Under the pieces are notes generated by a model, which worked only from the letters and a program-made list of their open reading frames with translations, was not told the DNA's origin and ran no database searches. From a virus: DNA of 30,002 bases. How positions within the stretch are numbered: the first letter of the stretch is position 1; every line of letters starts with the position of its first letter. This document shows, piece after piece, positions 2,771-29,158 of the stretch. The position numbers and the translations under genes are program-made. The stretch lies in IMG/VR virus record IMGVR_UViG_3300025086_000149, positions 1 to 30,002 of that record; one strand, 5' to 3'.

Positions 2771-2779
2771 GTTTTCACC

Positions 2780-3064: not shown

Positions 3065-3082
3065 TCGCACACCCCCTATGAA

Positions 3083-3256
3083 TCAGGAGGTGACGACCAC
3101 AACGTAAAGATTGCCGAGCATGAGGTAGGACGTAACACCTTCCACGGTCTTGCCGTTGGTGTAATCGTCCAGTACCTTTTGGACACCGCCAGCCACAGAT
3201 GCCCCAGTCTCCTTCGCATCGGAAGGCTTGAACTCGAACACTTTGGTGTCGGACAC
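3083..3256 (-). CDS. Small hypothetical protein (57 aa)
   Basis: A short reading frame starting GTG at 3256 and ending TGA at 3083-3085. The product begins MSDTKVFEFKPSDAKETGAS and ends NLYVVVVTS. It fills the gap between two well-supported genes, has GAGGTGA four bases before the GTG, and starts nine bases after the upstream stop, the same arrangement as its neighbours. The first half is charged, the second half carries a short helix (VQKVLDDYTNGKTVEGV) and a beta-prone tail. I do not recognise it. Its place suggests a minor head or connector component. Confidence 0.6.
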   Translation of the reverse strand: MSDTKVFEFKPSDAKETGASVAGGVQKVLDDYTNGKTVEGVTSYLMLGNLYVVVVTS

Positions 3257-3265
3257 TCAGTCACC

Positions 3266-3984: not shown

Positions 3985-3995
3985 GAAGGCTCACC

Positions 3996-4460: not shown

Positions 4461-4476
4461 GATTCATTCCTCCATG
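4458..4476 (-). promoter_or_regulatory. 19-nt translation-initiation element, copy before decoration gene
   Basis: On the minus strand this reads CATGGAGGAATGAATCATG, ending in the start codon of the probable decoration gene. GGAGGA is the ribosome-binding site, eight bases from the ATG. The same 19 bases occur before the major capsid gene, while the flanking bases differ. Confidence 0.7.
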
Positions 4477-4495
4477 TGTTCTCTTCAGCACGCCC

Positions 4496-5623: not shown

Positions 5624-5639
5624 GATTCATTCCTCCATG
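5621..5639 (-). promoter_or_regulatory. 19-nt translation-initiation element, copy before capsid gene
   Basis: Minus strand CATGGAGGAATGAATCATG, identical to the copy before the decoration gene. It holds the ribosome-binding site, the capsid start codon and a tiny reading frame ATG-GAG-GAA-TGA that stops three bases before the capsid ATG. Confidence 0.7.
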
Positions 5640-5652
5640 ATTTCTGTTTGTC

Positions 5653-5668
5653 CGAGGCTCAAGCCTCG
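5653..5668 (-). terminator. Hairpin with the protease/scaffold stop codon in its loop
   Basis: A perfect 6-bp stem (CGAGGC / GCCTCG) with a 4-nt loop, and the TGA of the protease/scaffold gene lies in the loop. There is no T-run after it on the minus strand, so a simple intrinsic terminator is unlikely. An RNA processing or protection element between the scaffold and capsid cistrons is an alternative. Confidence 0.35.
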
Positions 5669-7059: not shown

Positions 7060-7081
7060 TGTCTTCAGAACCTGTCGTCAT

Positions 7082-7089
7082 TCTACTTA
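7082..7089 (-). promoter_or_regulatory. Possible TATA-like element before protease gene
   Basis: The 31-nt gap before the protease ATG contains minus-strand GTTAAGTAGAAT, about 26 bases ahead of the start codon. In archaea this spacing would suit a TATA box serving a transcript with little or no leader. It would allow head genes to be expressed apart from the giant-protein gene. The match to a TATA consensus is weak. Confidence 0.2.
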
Positions 7090-7090
7090 A

Positions 7091-10000: not shown

Positions 10001-12838
10001 GTAACGCTCTTGGTCTTCGGTCGCAGGCTGAGCCTCGCTGATGCGTGGCTCCAACTCACCGGAAGGAGCGGTGCCTGCAGGGAAATTGACGCCGTAGTTG
10101 ACCATCACGTTAGTATCGGGGTCGTCGTCCAGAGGCGCCTCGCCAAAGCGGTACATGCGGCGCTCGTGAGTCGAGTGCAATCGCTCTTTGCGACGAGCGT
10201 ATTCTTCTTCCAACTCTTGCTGGCGACCTTCAGGAGCGACGCGCATGCGCTGCTCAAACTCAGCGTCCAGTGCCGCCAATTCGCGTGCAAGGTCTGCGGA
10301 GGCAGGTGGCTCATCCCGATGCTGCAACTCCTCCATCTGCGCGTCGTGGTCCGCCAGACTGGACGTAAGGCGACCGCGGTCATCGGTCAAATGAAAGACG
10401 TGCTGCTGCGGGTCCATGGGGGCACGAGCAAAGCCCATCATGGTCGCAATGGCATGATGATGCTGACTGTGATGCTTGTCGAACGTCTCCTCGTTGTAGG
10501 CACCACCTGCAACACCGAAGGGGTTCTGCCCAGTCAAGTGCTCTGATTCTTTCCCAGTTCTGCGTTGATGAGCCAATTCCGCAGCCTCCCTGTCGCCAGA
10601 TTCACGGGCATCATGGTATTCACGCGCCAACGTGTTGTGGTATGCACCGTCAACCGTGGTCGCGTGGCGGTTATAGTGTGCGTTTTGGCCACCTGAGCCC
10701 TTGATGCGCGACGACACGGACACGTTGTGCGGGTTCATGGTCGAGCCCGCGTCAGCATAAGTCGGCTCCCCTCTTGGGTCTGAATCTGCGGTACCTTGCC
10801 CTACATTTTGAACAGTGACCAACTTTTTACCCTGCATCATGCGGAACAGTTGCGCTTCGCGCTGACCAAACGGCCCGATGAAGGGGACCATCGAGGCCCC
10901 GTCATCTTCGTGACGTGTCCTAATACCAGTGCGTGTGCGTGAAAACATCAGGCTGTCTTCTTGCTTTCCGCGAAGCCCAGCAACGCCAGTTCGCGCTTCG
11001 ACAGGGTTGAACTGTGTCGTGGTCTGAGGCACCAACTCTTCACCATAGAACTCGGCCAGCGCCTTCGCCTCTTCGTCGGGAGGGAGTTCAACTTCTTCTG
11101 AATCGAACAACTTCGTGTGATGGTGAAGCAGGTTGAACAGTTCGTTGGGGCGCTTACCCATACCGCCACGCATCCATGGCTTTTTCCAGAACGTGGCCAA
11201 CGTCGTGTGGTCGCCGTTCGCATAGCCGTAGTGTTCCGGGTCAACATGCGTGCCGAAATGGAAGATACCGTGGTTAGTCGCCATGCGAGAGGCAGCCGCG
11301 ACCTCCTTGGCTGATTCTTCACGAGTGCGGAAGATTTCGTCAATCTCGTCTTGCGTGAACACCTTGTCGGGTCGACTGTGAAACATACCGCCGCCCAGTC
11401 CCAAGTAATGTGGTGCGCCGGCCGGCAAAAGTTTCCGAGTTTCTGGGTCCACACCCAACATCGCAGCCATCACCAAGTAGGAAGGTGCAACGCCCGGCTC
11501 CATGCTTCCATCGGCTCTTTTTCGAGGTTCCGTCGAGCGGTGAGTGACGCTGACGGTGCCATCAGTATGCTGTGTGATGTGAGGTGTTTGACTGGTAAGA
11601 AGCAGGTCCTTAGGTTGCAGTTGATAGCCGTTCAATCGAGCATCCTCCTGCAAACGCAAGTTGTACTCCTTGACGGCACGCTCCCAAGCATTACCTTCCT
11701 TACCTGCTGTGCTATGGTTCCTCATGGCGCTGAGCCCGTGCACCTTCTCGACGTACTCAGCCTTCTCAGGTAGGCGGATGGGTCGATTCATCACAGGCTC
11801 AGTTGGCATGCCGACCGGACGCACCCAGTGGTCGTAAAGTCCAGAAAAGCGTTGGTGAAAGTTGCGAACAAAGCGAGGTATCAGATTGGCCCCGTTGGCT
11901 ATACCGGGGACACTGAACGGCTTCTGTGATTTGGAAGCACCGTGTTCGCGCAAGTGCTCGTAGAAATCGTGCCGCTGCTCAGGCGTCAGCCACTCAAGCC
12001 CCATGAGGTAGTCCATCAGACCAAAATCCTGTGACCACTCAGCCTTGCGCTGATTCATGTGAGCATCACGCTTCGCTTGCTCGCCCTGCTGCACCGTGAG
12101 TTCGCCACGACCGACAGCGTCGTCAATTTGACTGGACGCTTCTTGCCCTTGACCTCTCGACCATTTCAGGTAGTTCTCGTCGTAGAGACCATGGTTGGTT
12201 GCGTATTCAGTGTCCAGTTCACCGTAGTGGTGAGGCTTGAGCATGAAGCGGTGGTCACCTTCACGGGCATGCGTTTCCCAATCGGCCTCACGCGCACTGT
12301 CGTGTTCGCTTTGACCGCTGCTGTAAAAGTCCGCGACATGCTCGTGGTAGCGGTCGTGCAGTGGGTTGAACTGTGCGGAGCCCAACGGGTCGTGCGTTCG
12401 GTAGGGGTCCTCGGCGTTGCCGTCGACCATCTCAAACCCACGACCAGTAAGCGATTGACCGGGCTCAGGAGGGACGACGCGCATTTCGTCATAGGACGGG
12501 TTGTCGGCCAAGCCCATGCCGGCACCGTGACTCAGCGCATAACCGACTTGCGACTGCGCAAGGCCAGAGCCCACCATGGGACCTGCTTCAGCCTCAGCCT
12601 CCAGACTCACCGCGCCCTGTGTGCCAGTGGTCTGGGATTCGTCTTCCTTGCGGATGACGGCGTGGAACATCTTGACGAGTGCATCATCGCCAGCGTCGAG
12701 GAGGTAGCCGTGGCGCTCTGCGTTCACGACTGCGAGGAAGAAGTCTGCGCCGGCATCGGCCTTCCCAATGCCGTCGAGCAGTGAGGCGGTGAAGGTCTGC
12801 CTTGCCCTGTCGAGGGAATCGAGGGGACCGTCTCGCAT
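7091..12838 (-). CDS. Giant probable virion protein (1915 aa) with inactive DNA-ligase-like domain
   Basis: The largest gene of the window. Most of it is hydrophilic, rich in His, Glu, Gln and Gly, with no signal peptide or membrane segment. Residues about 830-1000 form heptad-like coiled coils (ELAALDAEFEQRM, ELEEEYARRKERL, MSELNEELARLETGL). Residues about 1435-1680 follow the order of ATP-dependent DNA ligase motifs: VSHMPEGERGFVEK for motif I (usually EpKxDGxR; Met1460 replaces the nucleotidyl Lys), YYIFDVLEFAGKEV for motif III, ENILLRD (1572-1578) for motif IV and KWVMLRPG (1592-1599) for motif V, then an OB-like stretch (EGDHVRVNVANVSR). The key lysines are replaced, so ligation is unlikely; DNA binding or a structural role may remain. 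The acidic C-terminus is low-complexity. The gene sits between small portal-side genes and the protease, suggesting an internal head or ejected protein. Confidence 0.75.
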   Translation of the reverse strand: MRDGPLDSLDRARQTFTASLLDGIGKADAGADFFLAVVNAERHGYLLDAGDDALVKMFHAVIRKEDESQTTGTQGAVSLEAEAEAGPMVGSGLAQSQVGYALSHGAGMGLADNPSYDEMRVVPPEPGQSLTGRGFEMVDGNAEDPYRTHDPLGSAQFNPLHDRYHEHVADFYSSGQSEHDSAREADWETHAREGDHRFMLKPHHYGELDTEYATNHGLYDENYLKWSRGQGQEASSQIDDAVGRGELTVQQGEQAKRDAHMNQRKAEWSQDFGLMDYLMGLEWLTPEQRHDFYEHLREHGASKSQKPFSVPGIANGANLIPRFVRNFHQRFSGLYDHWVRPVGMPTEPVMNRPIRLPEKAEYVEKVHGLSAMRNHSTAGKEGNAWERAVKEYNLRLQEDARLNGYQLQPKDLLLTSQTPHITQHTDGTVSVTHRSTEPRKRADGSMEPGVAPSYLVMAAMLGVDPETRKLLPAGAPHYLGLGGGMFHSRPDKVFTQDEIDEIFRTREESAKEVAAASRMATNHGIFHFGTHVDPEHYGYANGDHTTLATFWKKPWMRGGMGKRPNELFNLLHHHTKLFDSEEVELPPDEEAKALAEFYGEELVPQTTTQFNPVEARTGVAGLRGKQEDSLMFSRTRTGIRTRHEDDGASMVPFIGPFGQREAQLFRMMQGKKLVTVQNVGQGTADSDPRGEPTYADAGSTMNPHNVSVSSRIKGSGGQNAHYNRHATTVDGAYHNTLAREYHDARESGDREAAELAHQRRTGKESEHLTGQNPFGVAGGAYNEETFDKHHSQHHHAIATMMGFARAPMDPQQHVFHLTDDRGRLTSSLADHDAQMEELQHRDEPPASADLARELAALDAEFEQRMRVAPEGRQQELEEEYARRKERLHSTHERRMYRFGEAPLDDDPDTNVMVNYGVNFPAGTAPSGELEPRISEAQPATEDQERYFMLAERVGALQNEMAQAQSEGATRSQLQAYRDQMSELNEELARLETGLSETGSQVTATLSPKAGQAHRKRNVLADRLRADDHAIGQAVRHIVDRMDPETRDHILNPNLPHETVEANMRMLARMGNEFLHAAPHGTHGIHTMGTTEHEVGQKRHAGLGHEIKSLGHEHGEPFEFDPMADVGETFNNMLQHLGLDANSPHDTKLASDYLQEVIIPRMSAGLPPAPVMSVRQLMEKLHPDRDIAAEAEKMKKQRAAMDVQLDVGRVHRTIGYQADERNQQLGMQFTQAYNADSRRSEYEPLTKKPAGGGNQRERKYWNTKQHLDSLVTFLPEVEAASSVTETKRGRAPVPVDAAGPHGHSVHSLYNSSGLAHEYGDLFHPNFNFRIGFDGEVSIMPSAQGIPMRLVQPTETIWNAVAPAAWMHMLKHPDHAGARTALNTLERQAAHTKPTSTGLARNQGSTNSVKSELGLADLTNPDIIRKELGPKVPLLQPMHRIFKLEDLEHLRGFTGDWIVSHMPEGERGFVEKDDDDDITSTFSLSDEDKENFQKVTDHEYKADVVKLEDGYYIFDVLEFAGKEVHDVPLNDRIKILRGGMEGIDNIHTPSASDTRLTDDEGLKLAVESLQKDHENILLRDAKSVYMAGEMRHPKWVMLRPGQDVVLRVLERRGVGPYTYRLGTGPITREEAIGSRAVEADGDTYMDVGAAFNSPEKFNEGDHVRVNVANVSRVENSVEDPVFTIMGSEIEGEAEGEPLVSRETLGLLAKSVGPQWLCEVERASTGVRVVMPQGDVLYKATESGGMWTLHSPLADNRYIIRLSESQRPYWGPVAGALLKANLEIKEEVHESEEEAEPLIEPKKVKDTSWWDNRQKAKVLVKGLELVDRFLKSSIGAVGAANAGAKGLGFDYATPIESPMGPTNLHDEKTMPDYDNRKRPGEDEDIEEESEDSEPPKRMSVPTEAGVLDITEDKAVLRR

Positions 12839-12855
12839 CCGTCATCACCAGCCGC

Positions 12856-13254
12856 TCAGTTCAGACGGCTGGACAAACGGTCCACGGACTTCTTCACGTC
12901 GGTCATGGTTGGACCGTCACCGCCTTTGAAGTTCTCAAGAGCACCTGTCGTGCTGAATGCAGTTGGGTAGTAAGGCGACTCTCTGGTCAAGACGTCGCTG
13001 TTCTCGGAGATGGCGCCCTTGTTGGCCACGTCTTCAACCTCAGGGACTGAGTTGTTGGTGTAGTAATGTGCAGATTGCACGTTGTCTTTCCCACCGCTCT
13101 GCGTCATGAATTGAGTCTGGCCAATCGTAGAGCCCTCTTTCTGTTCGTAGGCGGGCATGCTTCCTTCCTTCTTGGCGATACGGTCTTCAAGGGCCTTGGC
13201 TGCCTTGAGTAGTTCGGTGGCTTTGTCGCTTCCGGCTTCGTATCGTGGACGCAT
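12856..13254 (-). CDS. Small hypothetical protein near portal (132 aa)
   Basis: A soluble protein that begins MRPRYEAGSDKATELLKAAK. The first 35 residues form a basic amphipathic helix (ELLKAAKALEDRIAKKEG); the rest is polar with little predicted structure, and a short C-terminal helix (DVKKSVDRLSSRLN) ends it. The ATG at 13254 follows GGAG by eight bases. A GTG at 13263, which overlaps the previous TGA as GTGA, is an alternative that adds three residues. The family is not recognised. Its tight packing between the coiled-coil gene and the giant-protein gene suggests a minor virion or assembly role. Confidence 0.6.
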   Translation of the reverse strand: MRPRYEAGSDKATELLKAAKALEDRIAKKEGSMPAYEQKEGSTIGQTQFMTQSGGKDNVQSAHYYTNNSVPEVEDVANKGAISENSDVLTRESPYYPTAFSTTGALENFKGGDGPTMTDVKKSVDRLSSRLN

Positions 13255-13259
13255 TTTTC

Positions 13260-13631
13260 TCACTCCATTCCCATTGGTTGGCCGATGGCCCCAGACTCCT
13301 TGGCTTGGTCAGCAAGAGCGTGAATGTCGGACCAGTCCATCTTGTGGAAATCTGCGTTGGTAGTTGGCACATCAATGTCTGAGCCGTCCTGACCCTTGAG
13401 GATGAAGTCATCAACTTCTCCTCGGAACCCATCTTGAAGCACGTCTTCAGGGCGCTGCGTTGCTGCCGACACGAAGCCAGCCTTGCGAAGCATTGCAGAC
13501 GGATTGCGCATCATACGCTTGAGTTCTTCATTCTCAGCCTTGAGGACCTGCATGTTGTTGTCCATGCTTTCCATCTTGCTGATGAGGGCGCCCATGAGGC
13601 GCTCAGCGGTGTTTCCCTCTCCCTCAGTCAC
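13260..13631 (-). CDS. Small coiled-coil protein (123 aa)
   Basis: It starts with GTG at 13631, four bases after GAGGTGA, which is fused to the upstream stop. Residues about 8-45 form a strong coiled coil (LISKMESMDNNMQVLKAENE). The C-terminal half is acidic with the segment FHKMDWSDIHALADQAKESG. That segment resembles in style the end of the scaffold domain (MGWDEVHRLAGSVFEA): a D/E-rich W-x-[DE]-[IV]-H-x-LA pattern occurs in both. The meaning is unknown, but both could dock to the same partner. No enzyme motif is seen. Confidence 0.6.
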   Translation of the reverse strand: MTEGEGNTAERLMGALISKMESMDNNMQVLKAENEELKRMMRNPSAMLRKAGFVSAATQRPEDVLQDGFRGEVDDFILKGQDGSDIDVPTTNADFHKMDWSDIHALADQAKESGAIGQPMGME

Positions 13632-13640
13632 GCGCTCACC

Positions 13641-13982
13641 TCAGATGGTGCGGTTGGACAAACGTCGGTTGACCATGCCCACGCGGTTGGTACGAACCAT
13701 GCCGGGGAGAATGTTCTCGGTGGGCGCGTGTACGTTGTGCACCTCACTGGTCATCTTGCGGACGGGGACGCCGCCAGCGTAAATGTCGTTGATGCCGATG
13801 CGGCGGTCATTGGCTTTGACGATGGAACTGTCGATGTCCCTTCCAAGGTAGTCCGCGAACTTCAGCACCTCGTTGATGTGGTCGCGTGCCGAAACGGTGT
13901 CTTGCTCTTCAAGCGCCTTATAGAAACCATCAACGTGAGTGCGCATCTTGCGCGCCATTGGGTCCAACTTCTTCAGGTCCAT
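13641..13982 (-). CDS. Small hypothetical protein after portal (113 aa)
   Basis: It begins MDLKKLDPMARKMRTHVDGF. An N-terminal helical hairpin (FYKALEEQDTVSARDHINEV, LKFADYLGRDI) is followed by an extended C-terminus with many Asn, Arg and Val. The ATG at 13982 is preceded by GGTGGGG about six bases away. A longer frame reaching back into the portal gene is open but its upstream part overlaps the portal and lacks a ribosome-binding site. The stop codon is fused to the next gene's ribosome-binding site. I do not recognise the family. Confidence 0.58.
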   Translation of the reverse strand: MDLKKLDPMARKMRTHVDGFYKALEEQDTVSARDHINEVLKFADYLGRDIDSSIVKANDRRIGINDIYAGGVPVRKMTSEVHNVHAPTENILPGMVRTNRVGMVNRRLSNRTI

Positions 13983-14022
13983 GCGAATCCCCACCACCGC
14001 TGTCGGCTTAAATGCTCCTGCG

Positions 14023-15759
14023 TCAAGCCCCCCGAGGACGGCGAGCGTCAAGGATGCTCTGGCCAGCCTGTTCGACGCCTCCCATAGGGGCGCCTCGTTG
14101 CTGAACACTGGAGAAGGGAGCGCCCGCACCCATGCTGGTGCGGTTCTGTGGACTGGCGGGACCGCGGTTCCTCAGACCGAAGCCCTCGCCGCCGGGGTTA
14201 GCCGCGCCGGGGACCTGTGCTTGACGACCCATCTGAGCAGCGAGTTGCGGCGGAATGTTCCGACCGGGCAAGGCTCCGGGCGTGCCCATGCCTCCACCCA
14301 TTTGCATACCACCCATGGGCTGACCCTGCGGCGGTGGCTGTGCGCCCGGCTCAGGTTGCTTGTAGATGAAGCGAATGTCTCGGCTGGCATCTTCGACCAG
14401 CGTGGGCTGATAACCCATCATCATCATGCGCTGCGCGATGTTGACTTCCATCTCATCGCGCCGTAGGCGTGTGACCTCGTCCTCTTCTTCGTTGGGATAG
14501 AGGCTCAACTTCCAATCGCTGACGTCCATCTGTTCAACCATGCGCGGGAAAAGATGCTCGGTGTAGACCTTGTGACCAAACTCAACTGCACGGTTGGTCA
14601 CCAGAATCTGCATACCTTCGTTGTTCAGGCCGCCGGACTTGCCGGTGTCCATCATGAACACGTTCGACACACCGTAGAATGCGGCGATGCGCTGGCGCAT
14701 CTCATCGCGTGCAGGGATGTACTGCATCTCCTCCAGAGAATCCATCAACTTGACCCAGTTCACGCCACCCTTACCATTACCTTCCGTAGCAATCTTAGGG
14801 ATGTAGTGCGGGTCGCGCTCCAACTTCTCATCCGTCGCCTTCCAAAACGACTTCATGGATTCAAGGTTTTCCGTGGTGATGCTCAAGATTCCACGAGGAA
14901 TGCGACGCTTCGAGTAGGCCGTGTACATGTAATTGTCCATGGCGGTCAACGTCATGGCTTGTCGCCAGAGCGTTGAGACAGGGCTTCGGCCGTAGAGTTT
15001 CGACGGCTGGTACTTGCTGACGTGGATGACTTCGCCTTTGAGGTAGTATTGCGTTTTGCCACTCCCAGCCGTGTTGACGTGATGCACGTCTTCCATCTCA
15101 GTGCCACACGTCGGGCAGAATTTGTCGTTCTCGGAATACGCCTTGACCTCGGTGCGGTGAATGGGGCAAACCCGGAAACGCCCGCCACGAACACCGCGCT
15201 TGTCGGCGATGATACGCATGAAGATAGGGTCGCCACGCACGACTTCTTTGATGCGATAGAAGGCCATTTCTTTCGTCTCAGGGTCCATGAAGTATTCTTT
15301 GATGAGGACGAGGAAAGCATCGTCGGTGATGTTGAGGTCGTACTCAATCTCACGCAGAACATCCATGAAAGTCTGTTCCATAGAGTTGCGTTGCTCAAGA
15401 AGCCAGCGAGCATAAACGAGTTGGTCGGGCTCAGGGTCACGCACTTCTCCACCACATTCGTTGCAGAGTTCAACGTCGTGCTGGTATTCTTTGTCGCATT
15501 CCGTACACTTCTTGTGAAACTTCTTCTCCCAACGGTAGCCACGGCGAAAGATTTCCTGCTGAAGCGTGCTAAGCACAGTGCGCAGGATGAGGTTTTCACT
15601 GGCCACGGCATACAGTGCAGGGATAGTGATACCTTGCACGAGGACAGGTTCTTGGATGCCTGTGGTCCACAGGGGCATCTGAGGCTCAGGCGTCGTCCTG
15701 CGACGGAACGGAGCACTCACAGATTCGAGCAAACGTCCGACACGACTCTTCTCCGCCAT
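14023..15759 (-). CDS. Portal protein with two zinc-binding insertions
   Basis: A 578-residue portal, the dodecameric head vertex through which DNA enters and leaves. Portal features are LVQGITIPALYAVASENLI at the N-terminus; EVIHVSKYQPSKLYGRSPVS in the stem/wing region; the long helix with LTAMDNYMYTAYSKRRIPRG; and AFYGVSNVFMMDTGKSGGLN before the crown. Two zinc sites are embedded in the wing part: C85-x2-C88-x10-C99-x2-C102 and C198-x2-H201-x13-C215-x2-C218. Such ribbons are not usual in characterised phage portals. The last about 100 residues are Gly, Pro, Met and Gln rich. The ATG at 15759 overlaps the TGA of the LAGLIDADG gene as TGATG, with GGAGGG about six bases upstream. A longer in-frame opening (to 15807) lies inside the upstream gene and is not needed. 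Confidence 0.85.
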   Translation of the reverse strand: MAEKSRVGRLLESVSAPFRRRTTPEPQMPLWTTGIQEPVLVQGITIPALYAVASENLILRTVLSTLQQEIFRRGYRWEKKFHKKCTECDKEYQHDVELCNECGGEVRDPEPDQLVYARWLLEQRNSMEQTFMDVLREIEYDLNITDDAFLVLIKEYFMDPETKEMAFYRIKEVVRGDPIFMRIIADKRGVRGGRFRVCPIHRTEVKAYSENDKFCPTCGTEMEDVHHVNTAGSGKTQYYLKGEVIHVSKYQPSKLYGRSPVSTLWRQAMTLTAMDNYMYTAYSKRRIPRGILSITTENLESMKSFWKATDEKLERDPHYIPKIATEGNGKGGVNWVKLMDSLEEMQYIPARDEMRQRIAAFYGVSNVFMMDTGKSGGLNNEGMQILVTNRAVEFGHKVYTEHLFPRMVEQMDVSDWKLSLYPNEEEDEVTRLRRDEMEVNIAQRMMMMGYQPTLVEDASRDIRFIYKQPEPGAQPPPQGQPMGGMQMGGGMGTPGALPGRNIPPQLAAQMGRQAQVPGAANPGGEGFGLRNRGPASPQNRTSMGAGAPFSSVQQRGAPMGGVEQAGQSILDARRPRGA

Positions 15760-17066
15760 CACAGACCCTCCGCCCAACTCATGACCGTATCGCGGTCGAC
15801 TCCCCATTCTCGCAACGAGTCCTCACCTTTGGCAGTTCCGTCTCGGTTCGAGAACTGCACAAGTCGCTTCAACTGCGTCTTTCGTACAGGGTTCTCTTCA
15901 CGGATGTAAGCCTTCACTGCCTTCGCCTGCATGTCTTTCATACGCAGATGAGGGGTGATGCCGTCCAACAACTTGTGCAAGTCGTCCTTTGCGTAGAACG
16001 ACACGCGGTGCTGACTCCGTTGAGTGTCCGAGTAGACCTTCTGGTCCAGTTGCAGAATGCCGGCTCCAATGTTCTTGTGCAACTGTTCGCAGTGCATGCG
16101 CCCTCGGTCGCCCGTAGCGATGAAGCCAGCGCGCGGCTCACCGCGCTCGGTAATGGTGATGTAACCGTCAGCGTCGAGGAAGCCCGCAGCGTAGGCCCAA
16201 GGGTCCTTCAGAATGAGGCCCTCTCGCGTCATGGAGATGAACTCTCCTCGGCGATGACCCTTGACGATGTTGACTTCCTCACCATACATGTTGAGCAACT
16301 TGGACAAGCGACCGGCCGTGATGCGACTGACGCCCTTCTCGACGAGGTTGCTGGTAATGGCACGAGCCGTCATAGCACCTTTCTCGTCAATCTCAGCCTT
16401 AGCCATCTGCATCCACTTCTGCTGCTCTTTGGTCAAGGAGTCAAACTGGTGCAGCGCTGTGCGCCACATTTTGCGAGCGTCCTGCTTTTGCTGCATAGCG
16501 CCGACCCACGCCTGCCGCTCTTCTTCACCCCAAACGTCAGCGAACTCGTCCAATTTTTCTAACGCATCCTCAGCCGCTTCCCAAACGTTGCAGGCTCGCA
16601 CGAGACTGGACTTACGGGTGTTGCCGAACAAGCGCAGCGAGCGCAAGTCCTTGTTGGACAGCCCCATCTTACGCATGGTATCTGCGTGCGGTCCAGCCCA
16701 GTCGAAGAGGCTCAGCGTCGCTTCGACCTCCGTTCCTTTGAGAGTGCGAATCCCGTGAATCAGTGCATCAATCTCTTCCTTGTCGTCTTTCAACACGCGA
16801 CGCGCTTTACGCAAATCTCGGATAATGGACGACGCACTCTTACCGATGCGGTCCTCGAACCAACCTTCGCCAGTTGGTGAAAAGGGAGCATACTGCGGCG
16901 CTGGTGCGGGCTCTCCTGTGACGATGACGGTCTCAGATGCAATCGACTTGGCGATGTCGCCGTCGACCAGAGGGTGCGCGGTCAAACTGGATGCGATGGT
17001 CGACAAGAGGTCATGGCCCATGTCGATGTGCTGGGTTGGACCCCCTACGCTCAGACTTGGCCACAT
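15759..17066 (-). CDS. Winged-HTH plus LAGLIDADG protein between terminase and portal
   Basis: A 435-residue protein. Residues 1-220 are mainly helical and unrecognised (RDLRKARRVLKDDKEEIDAL; ACNVWEAAEDALEKLDEFAD). Residues about 222-285 look like a winged helix-turn-helix (AITSNLVEKGVSRITAGRLS, then FISMTREGLIL). A single LAGLIDADG motif follows: YAAGFLDADGYITI, residues 292-305, with D300 as the predicted catalytic acid. Downstream residues to about 390 fit the rest of one LAGLIDADG domain, so a homodimer would be needed for cleavage. It could be a homing endonuclease, or a domesticated nuclease working with packaging. GAGGG lies about seven bases before the ATG at 17066, 28 bases after terL; its TGA overlaps the portal ATG. 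It is an intact free-standing gene, not an intein in terL or portal. Confidence 0.72.
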   Translation of the reverse strand: MWPSLSVGGPTQHIDMGHDLLSTIASSLTAHPLVDGDIAKSIASETVIVTGEPAPAPQYAPFSPTGEGWFEDRIGKSASSIIRDLRKARRVLKDDKEEIDALIHGIRTLKGTEVEATLSLFDWAGPHADTMRKMGLSNKDLRSLRLFGNTRKSSLVRACNVWEAAEDALEKLDEFADVWGEEERQAWVGAMQQKQDARKMWRTALHQFDSLTKEQQKWMQMAKAEIDEKGAMTARAITSNLVEKGVSRITAGRLSKLLNMYGEEVNIVKGHRRGEFISMTREGLILKDPWAYAAGFLDADGYITITERGEPRAGFIATGDRGRMHCEQLHKNIGAGILQLDQKVYSDTQRSQHRVSFYAKDDLHKLLDGITPHLRMKDMQAKAVKAYIREENPVRKTQLKRLVQFSNRDGTAKGEDSLREWGVDRDTVMSWAEGL

Positions 17067-17094: not shown

Positions 17095-18573
17095 TCATAC
17101 CGTGAACCACGCACCCGCAACCCTGCGAGAAGGAGCATCGCCGAACCAGTCGTCAACTCCGTCGAGGTAATCGTCGAGCATCACAATGCTACCCTTGAAC
17201 TCCTTGGTCGCCCAGTTGGCCAGTGCGAGGCTGACGGCCAAGTCGTCGTGCGAGCCCACGGACTCCATGCGCCCGTTCTTCTGCATGCCGAATCGGCTCA
17301 GTTCTGTTTCAAGCGTGCGCGTGAATTCTTTGCTTCGCTCGTCACCCCACGGGGTCTTGATGTGGCCCTGCTCGAAAGCCATGAGCAGCGACATGAACAT
17401 GCTCTCTTTCTTCTGACGCGTCGTCATGAACGTCTTGACGGGAATGTCCTCGCGCATGTCGCGCAACTCTGCCTCGAACATGCGTTGGAAGTTGTTGCCT
17501 TCCAACTCGATGAGGTCGGGCTGGAAGCGGTTGTTGAGCATGATGATGTGACGCTTCTGCGCCGTGCTGTTCAGCCCCTTCTGATGAACGACGTGCACGA
17601 CTTCTTTCCGCTCGCTGCCCGGAGGCATGCGCATGACGGTCATGGCCGTGTAGTCAGCGTTCGAGTCGCTGGCGATGGCGGGGTCCCAGCCGATGAAGTG
17701 CTGACCAAACAAGCCGCTGGCTTCGCCTTCCTCGTCGTATTCGTTCTCTGCTCTGTCCATCAAGAACAGTTCTGAGTCGCGCGCCTTCTCCAGCAGCGTC
17801 ATCGGGAACATGCTCGACATGTCGTGAATCGGCTCACATAGATACTCACGTGCAAACTTGATGGCAGGCATGGACTCCTCACGCTGTTTGAGGGCATCAA
17901 GCGGCCATCGGTTTGGCCAGAGCGGCTCGCCGTTGGGCATAATCGCTGGATAGGTCTCGACGGTGAACGTGTCTTTGTCCTCCAACTCAGCATACAGGTC
18001 ATTGTACGAGAACGGGGTGCCGACCATCATCAGTCGGCCTGTGTGGTGCAGCACAGGGAGCAGAACGGTGTAGAACCAGTCGGCCGCACGCTGCAGTTCA
18101 GAACTGGTCGTGCCCCACAGAATGTCGTCGCAGACGACCACGTCGGGGTGGAACCCACGGGTTGCACCGCCCACGGACTTGGCCATGATACGGCTGCCGT
18201 TGGTGAACTCGAAGTAGGACTTGGCCCACGGCTTGCCCGCAGGCTTCAGGCCCTTGAGGATGTCCGAGGACTCAATGTTGTTGCGGATGAACCGCATGTG
18301 TTCCAGCGTCTGCTCCAGCGAGTGGGAGAAAATCATGACGTGTGTGTTGGGCTTGAACGCCGCCAACCAGAGTGCGTAGGACATGAAGAACACGGACTTG
18401 CCGTGGTCACGGCTCGCTTTCACGCAGTAGTAGCGGTGTTCGTTCAAGCCCTTGAGCCAATCCTCGTGATGGTCGGACAACTCGAACTCCAGAATGTCCG
18501 TGAAGAAGTATGCGAAGGACTTCTTGGACATCTGCGTGTCCATGTCGTGAATGAGGTTGTTGACGTCAGCCAC
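17095..18573 (-). CDS. terL: Terminase large subunit (packaging ATPase and nuclease)
   Basis: A 492-residue TerL, complete in both domains. The ATPase has a Walker A variant (SRDHGKS, residues 54-60), Walker B VVVCDD (145-150) and the coupling motif VGTPFS (184-189). The RNase H-like nuclease has D297 (GWDPAIASDSNADYTAM), E356/E358 (IELEGN) and D443/D444 (SHDDLAVSLALA), the acidic triad positions. It drives DNA into the prohead and cuts the concatemer, working with the small subunit and the portal. The second Walker B residue is Asp rather than the commoner Glu. The start is GTG at 18573, with GGGGTGG about six bases upstream; an overlapping ATG is in another frame. The upstream stop ends two bases before the GTG. 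Confidence 0.93.
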   Translation of the reverse strand: MADVNNLIHDMDTQMSKKSFAYFFTDILEFELSDHHEDWLKGLNEHRYYCVKASRDHGKSVFFMSYALWLAAFKPNTHVMIFSHSLEQTLEHMRFIRNNIESSDILKGLKPAGKPWAKSYFEFTNGSRIMAKSVGGATRGFHPDVVVCDDILWGTTSSELQRAADWFYTVLLPVLHHTGRLMMVGTPFSYNDLYAELEDKDTFTVETYPAIMPNGEPLWPNRWPLDALKQREESMPAIKFAREYLCEPIHDMSSMFPMTLLEKARDSELFLMDRAENEYDEEGEASGLFGQHFIGWDPAIASDSNADYTAMTVMRMPPGSERKEVVHVVHQKGLNSTAQKRHIIMLNNRFQPDLIELEGNNFQRMFEAELRDMREDIPVKTFMTTRQKKESMFMSLLMAFEQGHIKTPWGDERSKEFTRTLETELSRFGMQKNGRMESVGSHDDLAVSLALANWATKEFKGSIVMLDDYLDGVDDWFGDAPSRRVAGAWFTV

Positions 18574-22765: not shown

Positions 22766-23467
22766 TCACAACATTTCGAGGATGTCGGCGTTCACGTCTT
22801 CGTCCCCGCTGGCCATCAGACTGGCTTTGACGCGCTTCCACACGTCCGGGCTCTCCTTACCCAGTTCCACCTTCAACACATTGATGGTATTATTGGCGAC
22901 ATTTGTCGTCGGCTCAGCCCACTTCTCTTGATACATGCTCAAGTCCTTCAGCGTCTCTCGGACCTCTTTGTGCAAGCGTACCATGTCGCCGATGACGCCG
23001 TCATCATGAACACTACTTTCCTGCATGAATTGGGACAACTTACCGTTGAGGCTCTGAACGTTCTCACGTAGAATGTTGATTTCTTGACCCGCGTTGATGG
23101 CCACAATGGCCGCAGAACTCTGCTTGACGAGTGGCTGAAAGTGCTGTTTCATGTGGCGATAGACCGCTTCTTCGCTGCACTCCAGTTCAGCCGCGATGTC
23201 CTCCGTCGTCCGCTCACCTTCAAAGTACGCGACTTCCAACATGCGCCGGTCATCATCTGTGCACACAGCGCACGAGTGATTTGCACCAACGTGGTAGTCG
23301 CCCACGTGATTGCGCATATGTCGCTCAGCCGTATTGGCTCGCCAACCCATGTCTTTGTCCATCACGCGAACGTCTGCGACGCCATCAATGATGTTCTGTT
23401 CCAACTCTTCACGGTCTCCGTGTTGGCAAAACGGGCAGGACCGCTTGTTCTGCCGCCCAGCCCCCAT
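22766..23467 (-). CDS. Tandem zinc/HTH protein, candidate terminase small subunit
   Basis: A 233-residue protein made of two similar modules. Module 1 has CPFC (residues 11-14), DREELE, and ERHMRNH; module 2 has CAVC, DRRMLE, an HTH-like ERTTEDIAAELECSEEAVYR, and YRHMKQH. The shared pattern is C-x2-C, D-R-x2-L-E, G, and R-H-M-[RK]-x-H, giving four possible zinc ligands around each HTH. C-terminal helices (INILRENVQSLNGKLSQFMQ, LHKEVRETLKDLSMYQEKW) could oligomerise. A DNA-binding HTH plus an oligomerising tail, upstream of terL, fits a terminase small subunit, but it lies more than 4 kb from terL, so a transcription regulator remains possible. The ATG is at 23467. Its TGA is fused to the next gene's ribosome-binding site. 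Confidence 0.65.
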   Translation of the reverse strand: MGAGRQNKRSCPFCQHGDREELEQNIIDGVADVRVMDKDMGWRANTAERHMRNHVGDYHVGANHSCAVCTDDDRRMLEVAYFEGERTTEDIAAELECSEEAVYRHMKQHFQPLVKQSSAAIVAINAGQEINILRENVQSLNGKLSQFMQESSVHDDGVIGDMVRLHKEVRETLKDLSMYQEKWAEPTTNVANNTINVLKVELGKESPDVWKRVKASLMASGDEDVNADILEML

Positions 23468-23528: not shown

Positions 23529-23810
23529 ATGCGTCTACCCCGCGCTCAGCCTCGAATCCGAGGTGTTCCGGTGTCCATTGAAACCGCCAGAAGCCTGAGC
23601 AAGGCTGCGCGAGACGTGTTGCTGCGGCGACGTGTACCCGAAATGGTGCAAACTCAGCGCCTTGAAAAGTGCCGCTCATGCACCAGTTGGGATGCTGTCT
23701 ACAGTCGATGCACAGAGTGCGGCTGCCAGATGCGCGTCAAAGCCGCTCTATCGTCAAGCGAATGCCCGCTCAAGAAGTGGGGACCTCATATCTCGGAAAT
23801 CCGAGAGTAG
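23529..23810 (+). CDS. Small zinc-ribbon protein, the only plus-strand gene
   Basis: A 93-residue protein with N-terminal basic residues and Cys positions C48-x2-C51-x9-C61-x2-C64-x1-C66, then C79 (LEKCRSCTSWDAVYSRCTEC, GCQMRVK, CPLKKW). The order R-x3-C-x2-C, C-x2-C-G-C-x-M-x-x-K and C-P-x-x-K-W is a recurrent small zinc protein of tailed phages and marine viruses, so the coding strand is clear even though all neighbours run the other way. I chose the ATG at 23529; an in-frame TTG at 23484 would add 15 residues. The ribosome-binding site is weak for either. The 3' end overlaps the end of the convergent two-TM gene by 25 bases. Its function is unknown. Confidence 0.7.
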   Translation: MRLPRAQPRIRGVPVSIETARSLSKAARDVLLRRRVPEMVQTQRLEKCRSCTSWDAVYSRCTECGCQMRVKAALSSSECPLKKWGPHISEIRE

Positions 23811-24028
23811 ATGCCGCCGAGCATGAAGAACGCGCCAAAGAGACCTGCCACCAGATAAGCCATGGTGTCGCTGTCTAATTGACCCGAGGCCAGAAGTAGA
23901 ATGGCTCCGAGTGCCACGATGATGGAAAGCAGTTGCACCATCACCATGTCGATGATGACGCTCTTCATAGGTGCAAAAATCTCCATGGTCGTCGAAGCAA
24001 AGCCGTACATTGAATCCTGAATCATCAT
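23786..24028 (-). CDS. Two-TM mini membrane protein
   Basis: An 80-residue protein with two hydrophobic helices, at about residues 23-48 (SVIIDMVMVQLLSIIVALGA and following) and 55-75 (MAYLVAGLFGAFFMLGGIYS), and a short polar loop with a Asp/Ser cluster. The ATG overlaps the upstream TGA as ATGA. The size and two-helix topology match small holins, but no lysis enzyme is seen in the window, so a holin call would be a guess. It belongs to a cluster with other membrane genes and the GTPase. Confidence 0.65.
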   Translation of the reverse strand: MMIQDSMYGFASTTMEIFAPMKSVIIDMVMVQLLSIIVALGAILLLASGQLDSDTMAYLVAGLFGAFFMLGGIYSRISEI

Positions 24029-24666
24029 CTCATCCCCATCATTTTGCCCATGAAGGTACCTGCGGCACCGCCAGCCTTGTCCATGAAACCGTCATTAGCC
24101 AGTGCGGCACTCAGAGCGCCACCCATCATGCTTTGTTGAGCAAATGTTGCGATTTGCTGTTGCTGCATTTCAGCCTGCTGAATGTTCTGCTGACTGGTCA
24201 TCTTCAAAGAATTGAACTGACTGGTAACGTTCTCCGCACTCATGGTCTGCAAGTTGGATGGTAGGCTCGTGATGTCCATTTTCATGGAGCCTTCGTCTTC
24301 GTCAATCGTGAACACCGCGTTCTTGAGAATCTCAAGCACTGAGAACGACACAAGGTCATTCATCATCTGCAAGAGTGTGGCCATGCTGGCCCCTGCGATG
24401 AAGCGGTCAATAGGAGCGAGCGTGCGCATCAACGCCATTTGAATTTCCATCTCACTGGGCGGCGCCACTGGTTGTTGCATCATGCCCTGCTGCATGCCCA
24501 TACCACCAGCCATACCACCCATGAATGGATGCTGCTGCGCTTGTTGCATCATACCACCTTGAGATGCGAATGGGTTTCCAAAGGATTGAGAGCCTGCTCC
24601 CGACTGAGGCATACCCCCACTGGCACCCAAATTAAGTGCCCCAGAGTTCTGCTGATTACCAAACAT
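24025..24666 (-). CDS. Met/Gln/Gly-rich protein with helical core (213 aa)
   Basis: It begins MFGNQQNSGALNLGASGG. The first about 75 residues are Met, Gln and Gly rich (GGMAGGMGMQQGMMQQPV). A more ordered core follows (LAPIDRFIAGASMATLLQMM; FSVLEILKNAVFTIDEDEGS), then a Gln-rich helix (NIQQAEMQQQQIATFAQQSM) and a Gly/Ala/Met tail. The ATG at 24666 has GGAGG eight bases upstream; an out-of-frame ATG lies between them. It ends overlapping the two-TM gene. The core shows no enzymatic motif. The function is unknown. Confidence 0.65.
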   Translation of the reverse strand: MFGNQQNSGALNLGASGGMPQSGAGSQSFGNPFASQGGMMQQAQQHPFMGGMAGGMGMQQGMMQQPVAPPSEMEIQMALMRTLAPIDRFIAGASMATLLQMMNDLVSFSVLEILKNAVFTIDEDEGSMKMDITSLPSNLQTMSAENVTSQFNSLKMTSQQNIQQAEMQQQQIATFAQQSMMGGALSAALANDGFMDKAGGAAGTFMGKMMGMR

Positions 24667-24679
24667 TTCATCGCCTCCC

Positions 24680-25690
24680 TTACTGTGTGAACAGTCCCGG
24701 CTCACTTTGAGGCAGTTCGGCCTGAGCCATAGAGGCTTCGACGACCGGATTGCTCTGCGCTACGTTGTGAGCCGGGCGCTGCATGATGCCCAAATTGGTG
24801 ATGGCATCGGATAACTGCGGTCGTGTGGCCAGCACTTCTTTTTGGAACAAGCGGAGGTCAAACACAATCATGGTCACGTCATTGATACCTGTCTCTGGAT
24901 TCTGATAGTGAAGGAGATTGATGCCCGGTTGCACCTTGGAATCCTTCTCCAGTTCCATGAAAAACGACTCGTACTTCTTGAGAAATTCAGGCGTGTTGTC
25001 CTTCTTCCTAACCACAGCGATTGGAACGGCCACAGTCGAAACACCTTTCTTGACCATTTCACGCATACCGGTCTTGGTCTTGTTGTGGTCCTTGTCGTTT
25101 TCAGACTCCCACTTGCAGAGCAAATGGTAGAGGTGCAAGTGCTCAGGGCAATACGTCCCCTTCATCTTGGCACCGTTGGTGACCTTTTCTCTTGCCACGA
25201 AGGGCTCAGGTGTCTGCGTCACCGGGTTGCGCCAGTAGAGTTCCCACAGACTTTTGCCTGTCTGCTCATCAGTAATCTTGGCATACAAATTGTCGTACTG
25301 AATGAGTTCTTCGCAATTGCAGCCATCGACCACGCACAAGTTGCTTTGTCGGTTATACCGATACTTGAGGCCGCCCAACCAACGAAGCGGGTTGTACCAA
25401 GGGCGCTTGGTCGGCTTGAGCAACTTCCGCGCTTGACGAATGTCTTGCTTGCGAGCCTTACGAGGGTCAGGGTGTCGGCTGGGGTAGAAGTTGACCTTTG
25501 GCACTTCGATGTTCTGCTTGCCTGCCATTTGTCGCATACCCTGCTGAGCGGCCTGCATCTCCAACAACTGTTCGTGACTGGCGTTCCCTTGCTGACTTAG
25601 AGCCACCAAATGGGCCTGACTCATTGTGGCAAGCCCTGCATCACTTTGCGGCACTTGCCCATATCCACCAAATCGCTTGCTCATCATCAT
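24680..25690 (-). CDS. Hypothetical protein with a zinc site (336 aa)
   Basis: The N-terminus is Gln/Ala rich, followed by a basic segment (DPRKARKQDIRQARKLLKPT). Residues about 119-192 hold possible zinc ligands: C119, C124 and C126 (CVVDGCNCEELIQYDNLYAK) and C181-x2-H184 with H186, H189 and C192 (CPEHLHLYHLLCKW). The later part is alpha/beta (VSTVAVPIAVVRKKDN; VTMIVFDLRLFQKEVL). I chose the ATG at 25690 with GAAGGTGA just upstream; two more ATGs follow at once, and a TTG at 25702 is unlikely. The gene follows the GTPase gene and could make a partner for it, but this is only neighbourhood evidence. The family is not recognised. Confidence 0.65.
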   Translation of the reverse strand: MMMSKRFGGYGQVPQSDAGLATMSQAHLVALSQQGNASHEQLLEMQAAQQGMRQMAGKQNIEVPKVNFYPSRHPDPRKARKQDIRQARKLLKPTKRPWYNPLRWLGGLKYRYNRQSNLCVVDGCNCEELIQYDNLYAKITDEQTGKSLWELYWRNPVTQTPEPFVAREKVTNGAKMKGTYCPEHLHLYHLLCKWESENDKDHNKTKTGMREMVKKGVSTVAVPIAVVRKKDNTPEFLKKYESFFMELEKDSKVQPGINLLHYQNPETGINDVTMIVFDLRLFQKEVLATRPQLSDAITNLGIMQRPAHNVAQSNPVVEASMAQAELPQSEPGLFTQ

Positions 25691-25698
25691 ATTCACCT

Positions 25699-26421
25699 TC
25701 AAATCGTAAGGAGGTCCATCATTGAATTTTCTACGTTCCAGCCAATGCGCGTCGCCATCATACCCCTCTTCGTAGGAATCCCCGCCTTTTGAAGACGGAC
25801 GAGGTCTTCGCGGAACGGGTCGTACATCTTGTGCTCACCGAGCCGCTGTTGCTGCCAAAGAACGTTGGCTTGTTCATCCCACCAATGGTCTGCCTTATTT
25901 GCCACGAGCATGATGACCTTCGGAACGTACTTCTTCCCCTTCATCCAAGAACGTAGGTTGCGATAGCGGTACTGCCGATGAAGCAAAGCGTCGACGAGGT
26001 ACTTGAACCCGCCAACGGCCTGTATTGCGGGGTCACCGCCCTTCGCACTGCGATGGTCAAAAAGAAACACGACTGACTCAACCTGACGATTGACCATGTC
26101 GTCAATCCAAAGGTTCCAGAACCGCTCTTCTCCGCCAATGTCGCTTGAGTACACAACGCGCGTATCGCCCTTATACGACACGCGTTTCCTCGTTGGGGAA
26201 GGAAGTAAAAAGCGGTTGATACCGGGCACCTTGAAGTGCTTGGTGCGTTCTTCAATGGGAATCTCCTCCATCTCTCCGGGGGTGGTCATGTATCGGTCAA
26301 GAGTCGTTTTGCCTACCAGAGGAGGACCATAGACGCCGACGCGTCGCGGTTTCCAGTAATGCCATAATTCACGAGCAAACACCATGCCTCCGACGAGTGC
26401 TGTACCACCAATCGCCGTCAA
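25699..26421 (-). CDS. Arf-like small GTPase with N-terminal hydrophobic segment
   Basis: A 240-residue protein with all small-GTPase landmarks. G1 P-loop GPPLVGKT is at residues 32-39. G3 DIGGE is at 94-98, the Arf/SR-beta style D-x-G-G-[QE]. G4 NKAD is at 175-178. A G5-like ATRIGWNVENSMMDLL closes the C-terminus (compare SAKxGxNV). T46 or T60 could be the switch I Thr. Residues 1-23 (TAIGGTALVGGMVFARELW) are hydrophobic and could anchor it in a membrane, as in SR-beta. The start is TTG at 26421, just after the upstream TGA, with GGAGGGA about seven bases before; the next ATG (residue 13) lacks such a site. It lies among membrane-protein genes. It could also be a more distant Ras-like NTPase. 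Virus-encoded enzymes of this kind are very unusual. Confidence 0.8.
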   Translation of the reverse strand: MTAIGGTALVGGMVFARELWHYWKPRRVGVYGPPLVGKTTLDRYMTTPGEMEEIPIEERTKHFKVPGINRFLLPSPTRKRVSYKGDTRVVYSSDIGGEERFWNLWIDDMVNRQVESVVFLFDHRSAKGGDPAIQAVGGFKYLVDALLHRQYRYRNLRSWMKGKKYVPKVIMLVANKADHWWDEQANVLWQQQRLGEHKMYDPFREDLVRLQKAGIPTKRGMMATRIGWNVENSMMDLLTI

Positions 26422-26422: not shown

Positions 26423-26680
26423 TCAGTCCCTCCACGAAAAAATACTGTCCGACCACGACTGTAGTTTCAACTTCAACCAGTCACCTGTGACTTCCCACAG
26501 ACTCCAATCACTGTAGAACTCGATGCCACTGATGGTGAAACCGGTGATGATGGAAAACACAATGGCCTTGAGCCAGCCCCAGCCACGCTCGTAAGCCACG
26601 TCAACGGTGTTGGCGATGTGCATGCTGCGCAGCGTTTCCTCAACAGCATCGTCCGACGGCGTCTTGAAGATGCGCCCCAC
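26423..26680 (-). CDS. Small one-TM membrane protein (85 aa)
   Basis: An N-terminal polar helix (SDDAVEETLRSMHIANTVDV) is followed by one hydrophobic segment at about residues 33-55 (WGWLKAIVFSIITGFTISGI) and a Trp-rich amphipathic C-terminus (WSLWEVTGDWLKLKLQSW). It starts with GTG at 26680, nine bases after GGAG. Its stop is one base from the TTG of the GTPase gene, and the GTPase ribosome-binding site lies in its last codons, so the two are likely made together. It may recruit or cooperate with the GTPase at the membrane. This is inferred from position only. Confidence 0.62.
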   Translation of the reverse strand: MGRIFKTPSDDAVEETLRSMHIANTVDVAYERGWGWLKAIVFSIITGFTISGIEFYSDWSLWEVTGDWLKLKLQSWSDSIFSWRD

Positions 26681-26686: not shown

Positions 26687-27241
26687 TCACTCCTTCTTCT
26701 TGAACTTCCCATCAGGCCCGCGCTCGCGCTTTGCTTCTTCTTCGGATGTGAAGTCCAGACCAAGGCTGAGTGGTGCCGTAGGCTTGGGTTCTTCGGGAAC
26801 AAAGTCAACCGTCGAAGACGTGCGTCCAGTCAACCTTGCCTCAATCCAAGGGGGCGTCTTACCGGGATTCTTCTCCATCCACTGAAGTTCGGCCTCCAAC
26901 TGAGCCTCCTGCATGCGCATCTCCATGTCTTGGCGACGACGGTCAAAGGTCATCTCCATCGAGCGGTAGCGATTTTTGCGCTGACGTTCCATGGACGAAG
27001 CACGTGCGCGCTCGTCCATGCCCTGCTGAAAGAACATCTTGAACAGGTAATAGGCCAAGCCTTGCACAGCGAAAGCGGCCATAGCATAGGTCACACCGTT
27101 CAAACTTGGCTCATCCAATTCAAGCCAGATGCCCGCATCGAAGATGGCGATGGCCAGTCCGATGGTGACGGCTTGAGTCAGAATCAGACCCATCAATCGA
27201 ATTTCTGCTTGGTCTCCGCGAGGTGGTTCAAGGTTGCTCAC
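26687..27241 (-). CDS. Two-TM protein with long charged cytoplasmic tail (184 aa)
   Basis: TM helices lie at about residues 16-40 (LMGLILTQAVTIGLAIAIFD) and 50-71 (VTYAMAAFAVQGLAYYLFKM). A highly charged Met/Arg/Glu-rich helix follows (ERQRKNRYRSMEMTFDRRRQ; MEMRMQEAQLEAELQWMEKN), then a Pro-containing linker and a basic C-terminus. It starts with GTG at 27241, with GGGGGAG about six bases upstream. It is the first gene after the 142-nt gap and likely opens a transcription unit that includes the one-TM protein and the GTPase. The long tail could bind the GTPase or the capsid. The family is not recognised. Confidence 0.65.
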   Translation of the reverse strand: MSNLEPPRGDQAEIRLMGLILTQAVTIGLAIAIFDAGIWLELDEPSLNGVTYAMAAFAVQGLAYYLFKMFFQQGMDERARASSMERQRKNRYRSMEMTFDRRRQDMEMRMQEAQLEAELQWMEKNPGKTPPWIEARLTGRTSSTVDFVPEEPKPTAPLSLGLDFTSEEEAKRERGPDGKFKKKE

Positions 27242-28388: not shown

Positions 28389-28578
28389 GTTGTCCCCCAC
28401 GGCACCTGTCGAAATAAGCCTGCCGAATGAATTGGTACTGCTCTGCAGCCTCCATCAGCAGACAGAGCGCCTCAGGAGAGCCGTCGCTGTATTTCTCCAT
28501 CTGATGAACGTTGAATTCCGCCACACGCAACATTTCGAGGAAGAGGTCTTCCCACCAATCGTAGACATTTTCAGCCAT
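28369..28578 (-). CDS. Small acidic helical protein (69 aa)
   Basis: It begins MAENVYDWWEDLFLEMLRVA and continues with further helix (ALCLLMEAAEQYQFIRQAYF) to an extended C-terminus. The ATG at 28578 overlaps the end of the preceding gene by eight bases. The amphipathic helical pattern with aromatic residues suggests a small helical bundle. A longer opening to 28680 lies in the upstream gene and is not credible. The family is not recognised. Confidence 0.55.
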   Translation of the reverse strand: MAENVYDWWEDLFLEMLRVAEFNVHQMEKYSDGSPEALCLLMEAAEQYQFIRQAYFDRCRGGQHAGVLV

Positions 28579-29158
28579 TCTTGACGAGCACAAGCCCAGC
28601 GGGGTCCATGAGGGTTTCGGACTTAAGCGTACCCCTCGACTTGAAATGTCGGGCTCGGTTGGCATGCGGGCTCTCTGCAACGAGCGTACCTCGCTTGGTA
28701 TGGCTCATGTCGGGGCCACCCTTGCCCTCAATACCTCGCTTTCGACGCTCTCGCTTGAGGTCCGAGCGATACTTCACGCGCTCTGGCGTGGACTCGTACT
28801 TCGTGTCGTACTCCAACTTGTGACGCTTGGCTTCAGGCGAGACTGGATTTTTCAAAACGAGCACGCTCTTGACGACGGTCGGCTTCCCACCGACACCCTG
28901 CTTCTTTGCACGCTTGCGCTTGGTCGCCGCGCGCTTCTGACCGCTGGTCATTTCACCGCTGGTCTTCGGCGTTTTGGAACTGACGCGCACAGACGGGCGG
29001 CACTTAGGGTAACCTTTGCGCCCCTTCTTGGCTTTCGAGCGACCGCAAGGCGGATGCTTACCGTCCTTACCTCGACGGCTGACGTCGACCCACTTCTCCT
29101 TGAACCAGCGGTTCAAGTCCTTCACCACGAGGGTGTCGTAGCAGGTGCAGTGCTCCAT
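28571..29158 (-). CDS. Basic marine-virus conserved protein (195 aa)
   Basis: A Lys/Arg-rich protein. Residues about 18-72 (FKEKWVDVSRRGKDGKHPPC, CGRSKAKKGRKGYPKCRPS, then MTSGQKRAATKRKR) match a short Cys-containing family that recurs in marine phages and large viruses. Residues about 115-185 (YDTKYESTPERVKYRSDLKR; then DMSHTKRGTLVAE, NRARHF) look like a second recurrent module, often seen as a separate protein. The two are joined here. These resemblances come from memory of motif style; no reaction is known to me. The ATG at 29158 has AGGGG about ten bases upstream and follows the previous stop by five bases. Basic charge suggests nucleic-acid or capsid interior contact. Confidence 0.65.
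   Translation of the reverse strand: MEHCTCYDTLVVKDLNRWFKEKWVDVSRRGKDGKHPPCGRSKAKKGRKGYPKCRPSVRVSSKTPKTSGEMTSGQKRAATKRKRAKKQGVGGKPTVVKSVLVLKNPVSPEAKRHKLEYDTKYESTPERVKYRSDLKRERRKRGIEGKGGPDMSHTKRGTLVAESPHANRARHFKSRGTLKSETLMDPAGLVLVKNG

Follow-up and report, generated by a model that had tools for sequence, protein, structure and literature searches.

A conserved small GTPase of the Ras superfamily in tailed viruses that probably infect marine archaea

Membrane-controlling small GTPases are commonly regarded as equipment of eukaryotes and Asgard archaea, and those borne by viruses are known from giant viruses of eukaryotes. Members of the Arf family carry an N-terminal amphipathic helix, usually with a myristoylated Gly2, and in SR-beta an N-terminal hydrophobic segment is followed by an Arf-like G domain, at a length similar to that of the protein described here. 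This protein is a 240-aa small GTPase of the Ras superfamily, encoded on the minus strand at positions 25699–26421 of a window of 30,002 nt (the whole stretch of DNA analysed, positions 1 to 30,002 of the IMG/VR virus record IMGVR_UViG_3300025086_000149). Its family is covered by no family in PHROGs, Pfam or NCBIfam, and a switch of this kind seems to have gone undescribed in tailed viruses; we found no report of a small GTPase in magroviruses in the open literature, which leaves room for an earlier mention. In the terms of these three collections, a GTPase conserved throughout a lineage of tailed viruses of marine archaea would constitute a new viral protein family.

The reading frame starts with a TTG, preceded at a distance of 7 nt by a Shine–Dalgarno-like GGAGG, and its stop codon lies inside 25699–26421; most homologues have an ATG at the position of this TTG. 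Scans of IMG/VR retrieved 130 encoded relatives when the window protein served as the query, whereas the family alignment retrieved 215 and a distant member 142; the family thus counts upwards of 200 relatives among viral contigs. Conservation was assessed on 87 non-redundant sequences (<95% identity, minimum pairwise identity 48%). Invariant in all of them are G37-K38-T39-T40, D42, T47-P48-G49-E50-M51, R59-T60, H62, D94, G97, W102, N175-K176-A177-D178, M222-A223-T224 and G227-W228 (protein numbering, here and below). The dN/dS ratio between close pairs is approximately 0.03–0.08, and the GTPase is conserved almost as strongly as the terminase (median identity 67% versus 75%); the G+C content of the loci ranges from 37 to 59%. 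The frame is a real, strongly conserved gene, on which strong purifying selection acts. A sequence-only reading of the window had pointed out GPPLVGKT, DIGGE, NKAD and ATRIGWNVE(NS) within a single protein of 240 aa; all of these motifs are indeed present, and they are far above chance, with the residues listed above invariant in 87 homologues down to the identity given there.

The G domain consists of a P-loop at residues 32–39, a candidate G2 at T60, G3 at 94–97, G4 at 175–178 and G5 at 222–224. G1 (GxxxxGKTT), the D and G of G3 (DxxG), G4 (NKAD) and G5 (MAT) are invariant in the 87 members and occur in this order within one alpha/beta G domain, each after the right strand in an AlphaFold2 model built from 48 sequences without templates (mean pLDDT 76, pTM 0.76). 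The order of elements in this model, beta1-Ploop-alpha1-beta2-beta3-G3-alpha2-beta4-alpha3-beta5-G4-alpha4-beta6-G5-alpha5, is the Ras topology, with G3 following beta3, NKAD following beta5 and MAT following beta6. Situated 22 residues past the P-loop Lys, T60 has a spacing that suits G2 and is, on this ground, the candidate for the threonine that binds Mg; T47 is also invariant, and the model gives switch I low confidence (pLDDT 55–66). The D-x-G-G-E form of G3 had been taken for that of Arf and SR-beta GTPases. DIGGE is present in the window protein, but the residue that follows DxGG is Q in 47 members, E in 30, D in nine and H in one, and because it varies in this manner, E is not a trait of the family, and DIGGE is a local variant of DxGGQ and no hallmark of Arf or SR-beta. 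GTP binding and hydrolysis are predicted from the motifs and the model, and fast hydrolysis is uncertain, since the position of the catalytic Gln is occupied by E or D in 39 of the 87 members, the window protein included.

When the model was compared with the PDB by Foldseek, 899 matches were obtained at E ≤ 1e-3 (E 8e-7), and the 50 of them that were listed are all small GTPases or complexes containing one. In VIA-align, Arl8b ranked first, with Z 13.5 and an rmsd of 2.9 for 160 residues, followed by Arl10B (13.4), Arf1 (12.8), a chain of a tubulin-cofactor complex in two rows (12.7 and 12.6), a Lokiarchaeal RagA-like protein (12.5), yeast Arf1 (12.4), Arl6 (12.2) and Rabs (at most 11.9); SR-beta is not among the 50 VIA-align rows listed. 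By sequence, the window protein has no match in Pfam, PHROGs or the PDB, and the GTPase passes no cut-off of Pfam, PHROGs or NCBIfam. Weak matches of 48 members are spread over several families: TIGR00231 small_GTP of NCBIfam matches 37 of them (best E 0.0014) and Roc of Pfam 21 (best E 0.0012), and the Pfam Arf model is touched by eight only (best E 0.02–0.046). The best small-GTPase chain in PDB profile searches was 8oun, a 'GTP-binding protein', at E 0.3–0.6 with G1, G3 and G4 aligned. In hhalign comparisons with the family profile, each made with a single sequence and therefore weak evidence either way, HRAS reached a probability of 89 (E 2.4e-6) and ARF1 one of 1.2, yet with G1, G3 and G4 aligned; adenylate kinase, a control, scored 1.7. 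The protein can securely be assigned to the small GTPases of the Ras superfamily. The narrower label 'Arf-like' of the sequence-only reading is favoured by the modelled structure, with Arf/Arl at the top but only about 1.5 Z above Rab, and is unsupported by sequence, where several families match and HRAS precedes ARF1; as a whole, this label is not secure.

A non-GTPase P-loop fold, or G4 and G5 out of alignment, was not seen in the predicted structure, and the order of the motifs, the topology and the fold matches rule out a packaging ATPase, a kinase or another P-loop fold. RecA and acyl-CoA dehydrogenase matches in the PDB profile searches are short and were dismissed as noise, and an NCBIfam acyl-CoA dehydrogenase match (seven members, E 4e-6) reflects local similarity that the fold contradicts. 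A defence protein was likewise discarded, PADLOC giving no match.

Among the described systems, the Arf/Arl proteins (PF00025) provide the best structural matches, with Z 12.8–13.5 (Arl8b, 8jc5; Arf1, 8s5c), and the likeness extends to a hydrophobic helix that is N-terminal rather than C-terminal and lies right before beta1, to D-x-G-G at G3 and to A-T at G5. However, sequence identity is only about 15%, the viral GTPase lacks the conserved Gly2 and the Trp before the G3 Asp, and it has a longer switch I region and an insert before beta5. Ras, Rab, Roc and TIGR00231 share its fold and motif order, but the viral protein has no C-terminal Cys, and their structural Z is below that of Arf/Arl. In BFVD, a collection of viral proteins, the top-ranking matches come from the Rab/Ras proteins that giant viruses of eukaryotes encode (mimi-, pitho- and klosneuviruses; the mimivirus Rab, 5xc5, has Z 11.9), and no phage protein is close. 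Unlike the viruses studied here, these infect eukaryotes, and structural alignments with their proteins show 9–19% identity, with no sequence kinship seen.

The N-terminal helix of the viral GTPase (residues 5–23) is hydrophobic, short, Gly-rich and conserved, with G6 invariant and G11 nearly so. Its 19-residue Kyte–Doolittle maximum is about 0.9–1.4 across 48 members, and none of 35 homologues reaches 1.6, the usual transmembrane cutoff for 19 residues on this simple scale; its hydrophobic moment is modest, and Gly occupies position 2 in eight of 119 members. Of the membrane-anchor-like N-terminus proposed earlier, the conserved hydrophobic segment thus stands, but as an anchor it is weak, being too short and too Gly-rich for a transmembrane call. 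A C-terminal Cys occurs in 0 of 119 members, so the GTPase has no prenyl anchor of the Ras/Rab type, and its membrane contact, if any, would be N-terminal.

On the same strand, the window encodes the terminase large subunit (TerL; 17095–18573, minus strand), a portal, a prohead protease and an SU10/HK97-type capsid protein; together with the motifs and the fold, these bear out the earlier claim that a tailed virus encodes a complete small GTPase. Within the phage collection, the capsid protein matches archaeal tailed viruses only, best HVTV-1 and its relatives (32–33%). A 73-kb relative, the GTPase of which is 100% identical, encodes PolB, a clamp-loader ATPase, a PD-(D/E)XK nuclease, an ERCC4 nuclease, a group II chaperonin and possibly an archaeal primase large subunit, and PolB was found in 11 of 11 virus records. 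PolB, clamp loader, ERCC4 nuclease, chaperonin and halovirus-related head genes are also the gene content of the Magrovirales, tailed viruses of about 100 kb. In viruses of MGII, a thermosome has been reported for clade 1 (PMC5332604), as have PolB, ligase and ERCC4 (PMC10160649). On gene content alone, the GTPase carriers would be magrovirus-like viruses of Poseidoniales, and their hosts are probably Poseidoniales archaea. The carriers form a large ocean virus group, and Poseidoniales are one of the most abundant archaeal groups of the ocean.

The GTPase gene lies 7.6–8.9 kb before TerL in each of the 46 terminase contigs whose upstream sequence extends to 8.7 kb or more, and it is present in 20 of 23 long records that were selected by PolB, independently of the GTPase. 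The three PolB records that lack it are fragments: one is also devoid of the terminase, and in the other two the terminase starts less than 5.1 kb from the end, so that the expected place of the GTPase is beyond the contig end. HVTV-1, with its 33% identical capsid protein, has no GTPase match in 41 kb around the head genes, and around the head genes of two other archaeal tailed viruses no homologue was found either. Given its presence in 46 of 46 and 20 of 23 cases and the lack of a match in HVTV-1, the GTPase is a core gene of this lineage that stands outside the general head kit of tailed viruses. Named phages and plasmids contain no relative (one match at E=2 and one at E=1, respectively). 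Among 84,980 genomes of cellular species, a scan that detects close relatives only yielded two matches, both on MAG contigs with the viral block described below. These contigs (NZMJ01000140.1 and PAUP01000076.1), which had been assigned to Maricaulis and Cytophagaceae MAGs, contain most of that block and are probably viral contigs placed in the wrong bins.

Upstream of the terminase, the GTPase is part of a seven-gene block (184aa-85aa-GTPase-340aa-226aa-80aa-233aa), the order of which is kept in 105 loci, a few of them with individual genes that escaped detection. Besides the GTPase, the block contains three membrane-protein genes, those of 184, 85 and 80 aa. The 85-aa protein (26423–26680, minus strand), encoded directly upstream of the GTPase with a gap of −8 to 11 nt in the 15 loci checked, has one membrane segment in 23 of 35 homologues. 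Its gene is always preceded by that of the 184-aa protein (26687–27241, minus strand), which combines an N-terminal membrane segment with a long charged tail, probably a coiled coil. This agrees with the earlier assignment of the two upstream genes to membrane proteins, and the co-occurrence of these neighbours with the GTPase in related contigs, suggested as a check, holds everywhere. The conserved 80-aa protein (23786–24028, minus strand) has two membrane segments and is, like the 184-aa one, clearly a membrane protein. Following the GTPase, the gene of the 340-aa protein (24680–25702, minus strand) is so close that, in the window, its start and the stop of the GTPase gene share 4 nt; this protein is the second most conserved of the block, with invariant C123, C185, H188, H190 and H193, and its poor model (pLDDT 68) matched no known fold. 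The remaining products are a Gln/Met/Gly-rich protein of 226 aa (24025–24705, minus strand), the true start of which may be an ATG near 24666, and a conserved 233-aa protein (22766–23467, minus strand) with Cys/His clusters and a helix-turn-helix-like stretch. Farther away, 28571–29158 (minus strand) matches PF19197 (DUF5872) above the cut-off (E 4e-12); its conserved stretch is found in 92 of 105 loci, and its position or strand relative to the block changes in some contigs.

Our preferred reading, to which we give slightly less than an even chance, is that of a membrane-associated GTP switch of the Ras superfamily that acts late at the host cytoplasmic membrane, in assembly or exit. The protein would serve there as a GTP/GDP switch or a slow GTPase, its N-terminal helix touching or partly inserting into the membrane, or else packing against the membrane segments of the 85- and 184-aa proteins, whose synthesis would immediately precede its own. 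The next product, the Cys/His-rich 340-aa protein, would be the likeliest partner or effector, and the block as a whole would organise a membrane site at which particles assemble or leave a host cell with no known peptidoglycan wall. Because its direction of transcription is that of the terminase, portal, protease and capsid genes, the block probably acts late, and because it is virus-specific and universal and the virus is thought to be lytic, assembly or exit is the most economical guess. We infer the membrane location, the physical partnership, the late timing and the role in assembly or exit, and nothing ties the block to exit over other membrane steps. That a membrane-docked Ras-superfamily switch and dedicated membrane proteins together run a membrane step of infection such as assembly or exit, which would make them the first membrane machine driven by a GTPase known in a tailed virus, is a bolder proposition that we consider rather doubtful. 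The GTPase may offer a handle on how tailed viruses leave or enter archaea that have no peptidoglycan wall, with candidate partners already named, since it sits in a fixed block of seven genes.

The proximity of the terminase fits a virion role equally well, and one explanation to weigh is that the genes of the block specify parts of the virion (such as neck, tail or injected proteins), the GTPase being packaged or acting in DNA delivery at entry. It is consistent with the strand and neighbourhood shared with the head genes, with the structural rather than enzymatic look of the 184-aa and the Gln-rich 226-aa proteins and with a GTPase conservation close to that of the terminase. However, no member of the block matches any virion protein family above noise, and the lack of a GTPase match in the 41 kb of HVTV-1 indicates that general tailed-virion assembly does not need this protein; we regard a virion role as less likely than the preferred reading, but still quite likely. 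The short N-terminal hydrophobic segment directly before an Arf-like G domain, approximately 215 aa long, and the adjoining membrane-protein genes would also suit an SR-beta-like function, in which a membrane-bound GTPase provides a docking site for a targeting complex and thereby enables the insertion or sorting of viral membrane proteins. We find this improbable, as the anchor, which falls short of the transmembrane cutoff, is weaker than in SR-beta, and no SR-alpha-like partner was recognised. Still less probable is a mimic or decoy of a host small-GTPase pathway (polarity, motility or division): the fold is that of signalling GTPases, but decoys and accessory genes tend to be distributed patchily and to evolve fast, whereas this gene is universal in its lineage, with fixed synteny, strong purifying selection and all nucleotide-binding motifs kept, and its two matches in cellular genomes are those on the MAG contigs carrying the viral block.

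Several other reading frames of these viruses deserve mention. The portal (14023–15807, minus strand; Phage_portal, E 1.5e-12) contains apparent zinc-ribbon Cys clusters at residues 94–122 and 224–242. In the interval between the portal and the prohead protease, a 1915-aa ORF (7091–12838, minus strand) has a partial ATP-dependent DNA ligase match around residues 1489–1597 (E 8.5e-7 in Pfam, 3e-8 in NCBIfam); at the equivalent position, HVTV-1 encodes a 1313-aa protein annotated as 'zeta toxin', and the 1915-aa ORF is possibly a giant head-associated multidomain protein. In the closest relative, IMGVR_UViG_3300006735_000027, a 5241-aa ORF (395–16120, minus strand) shares a 20-kb stretch with a Laminin_G_3/concanavalin-like domain protein and likely encodes a giant tail or adhesion protein.
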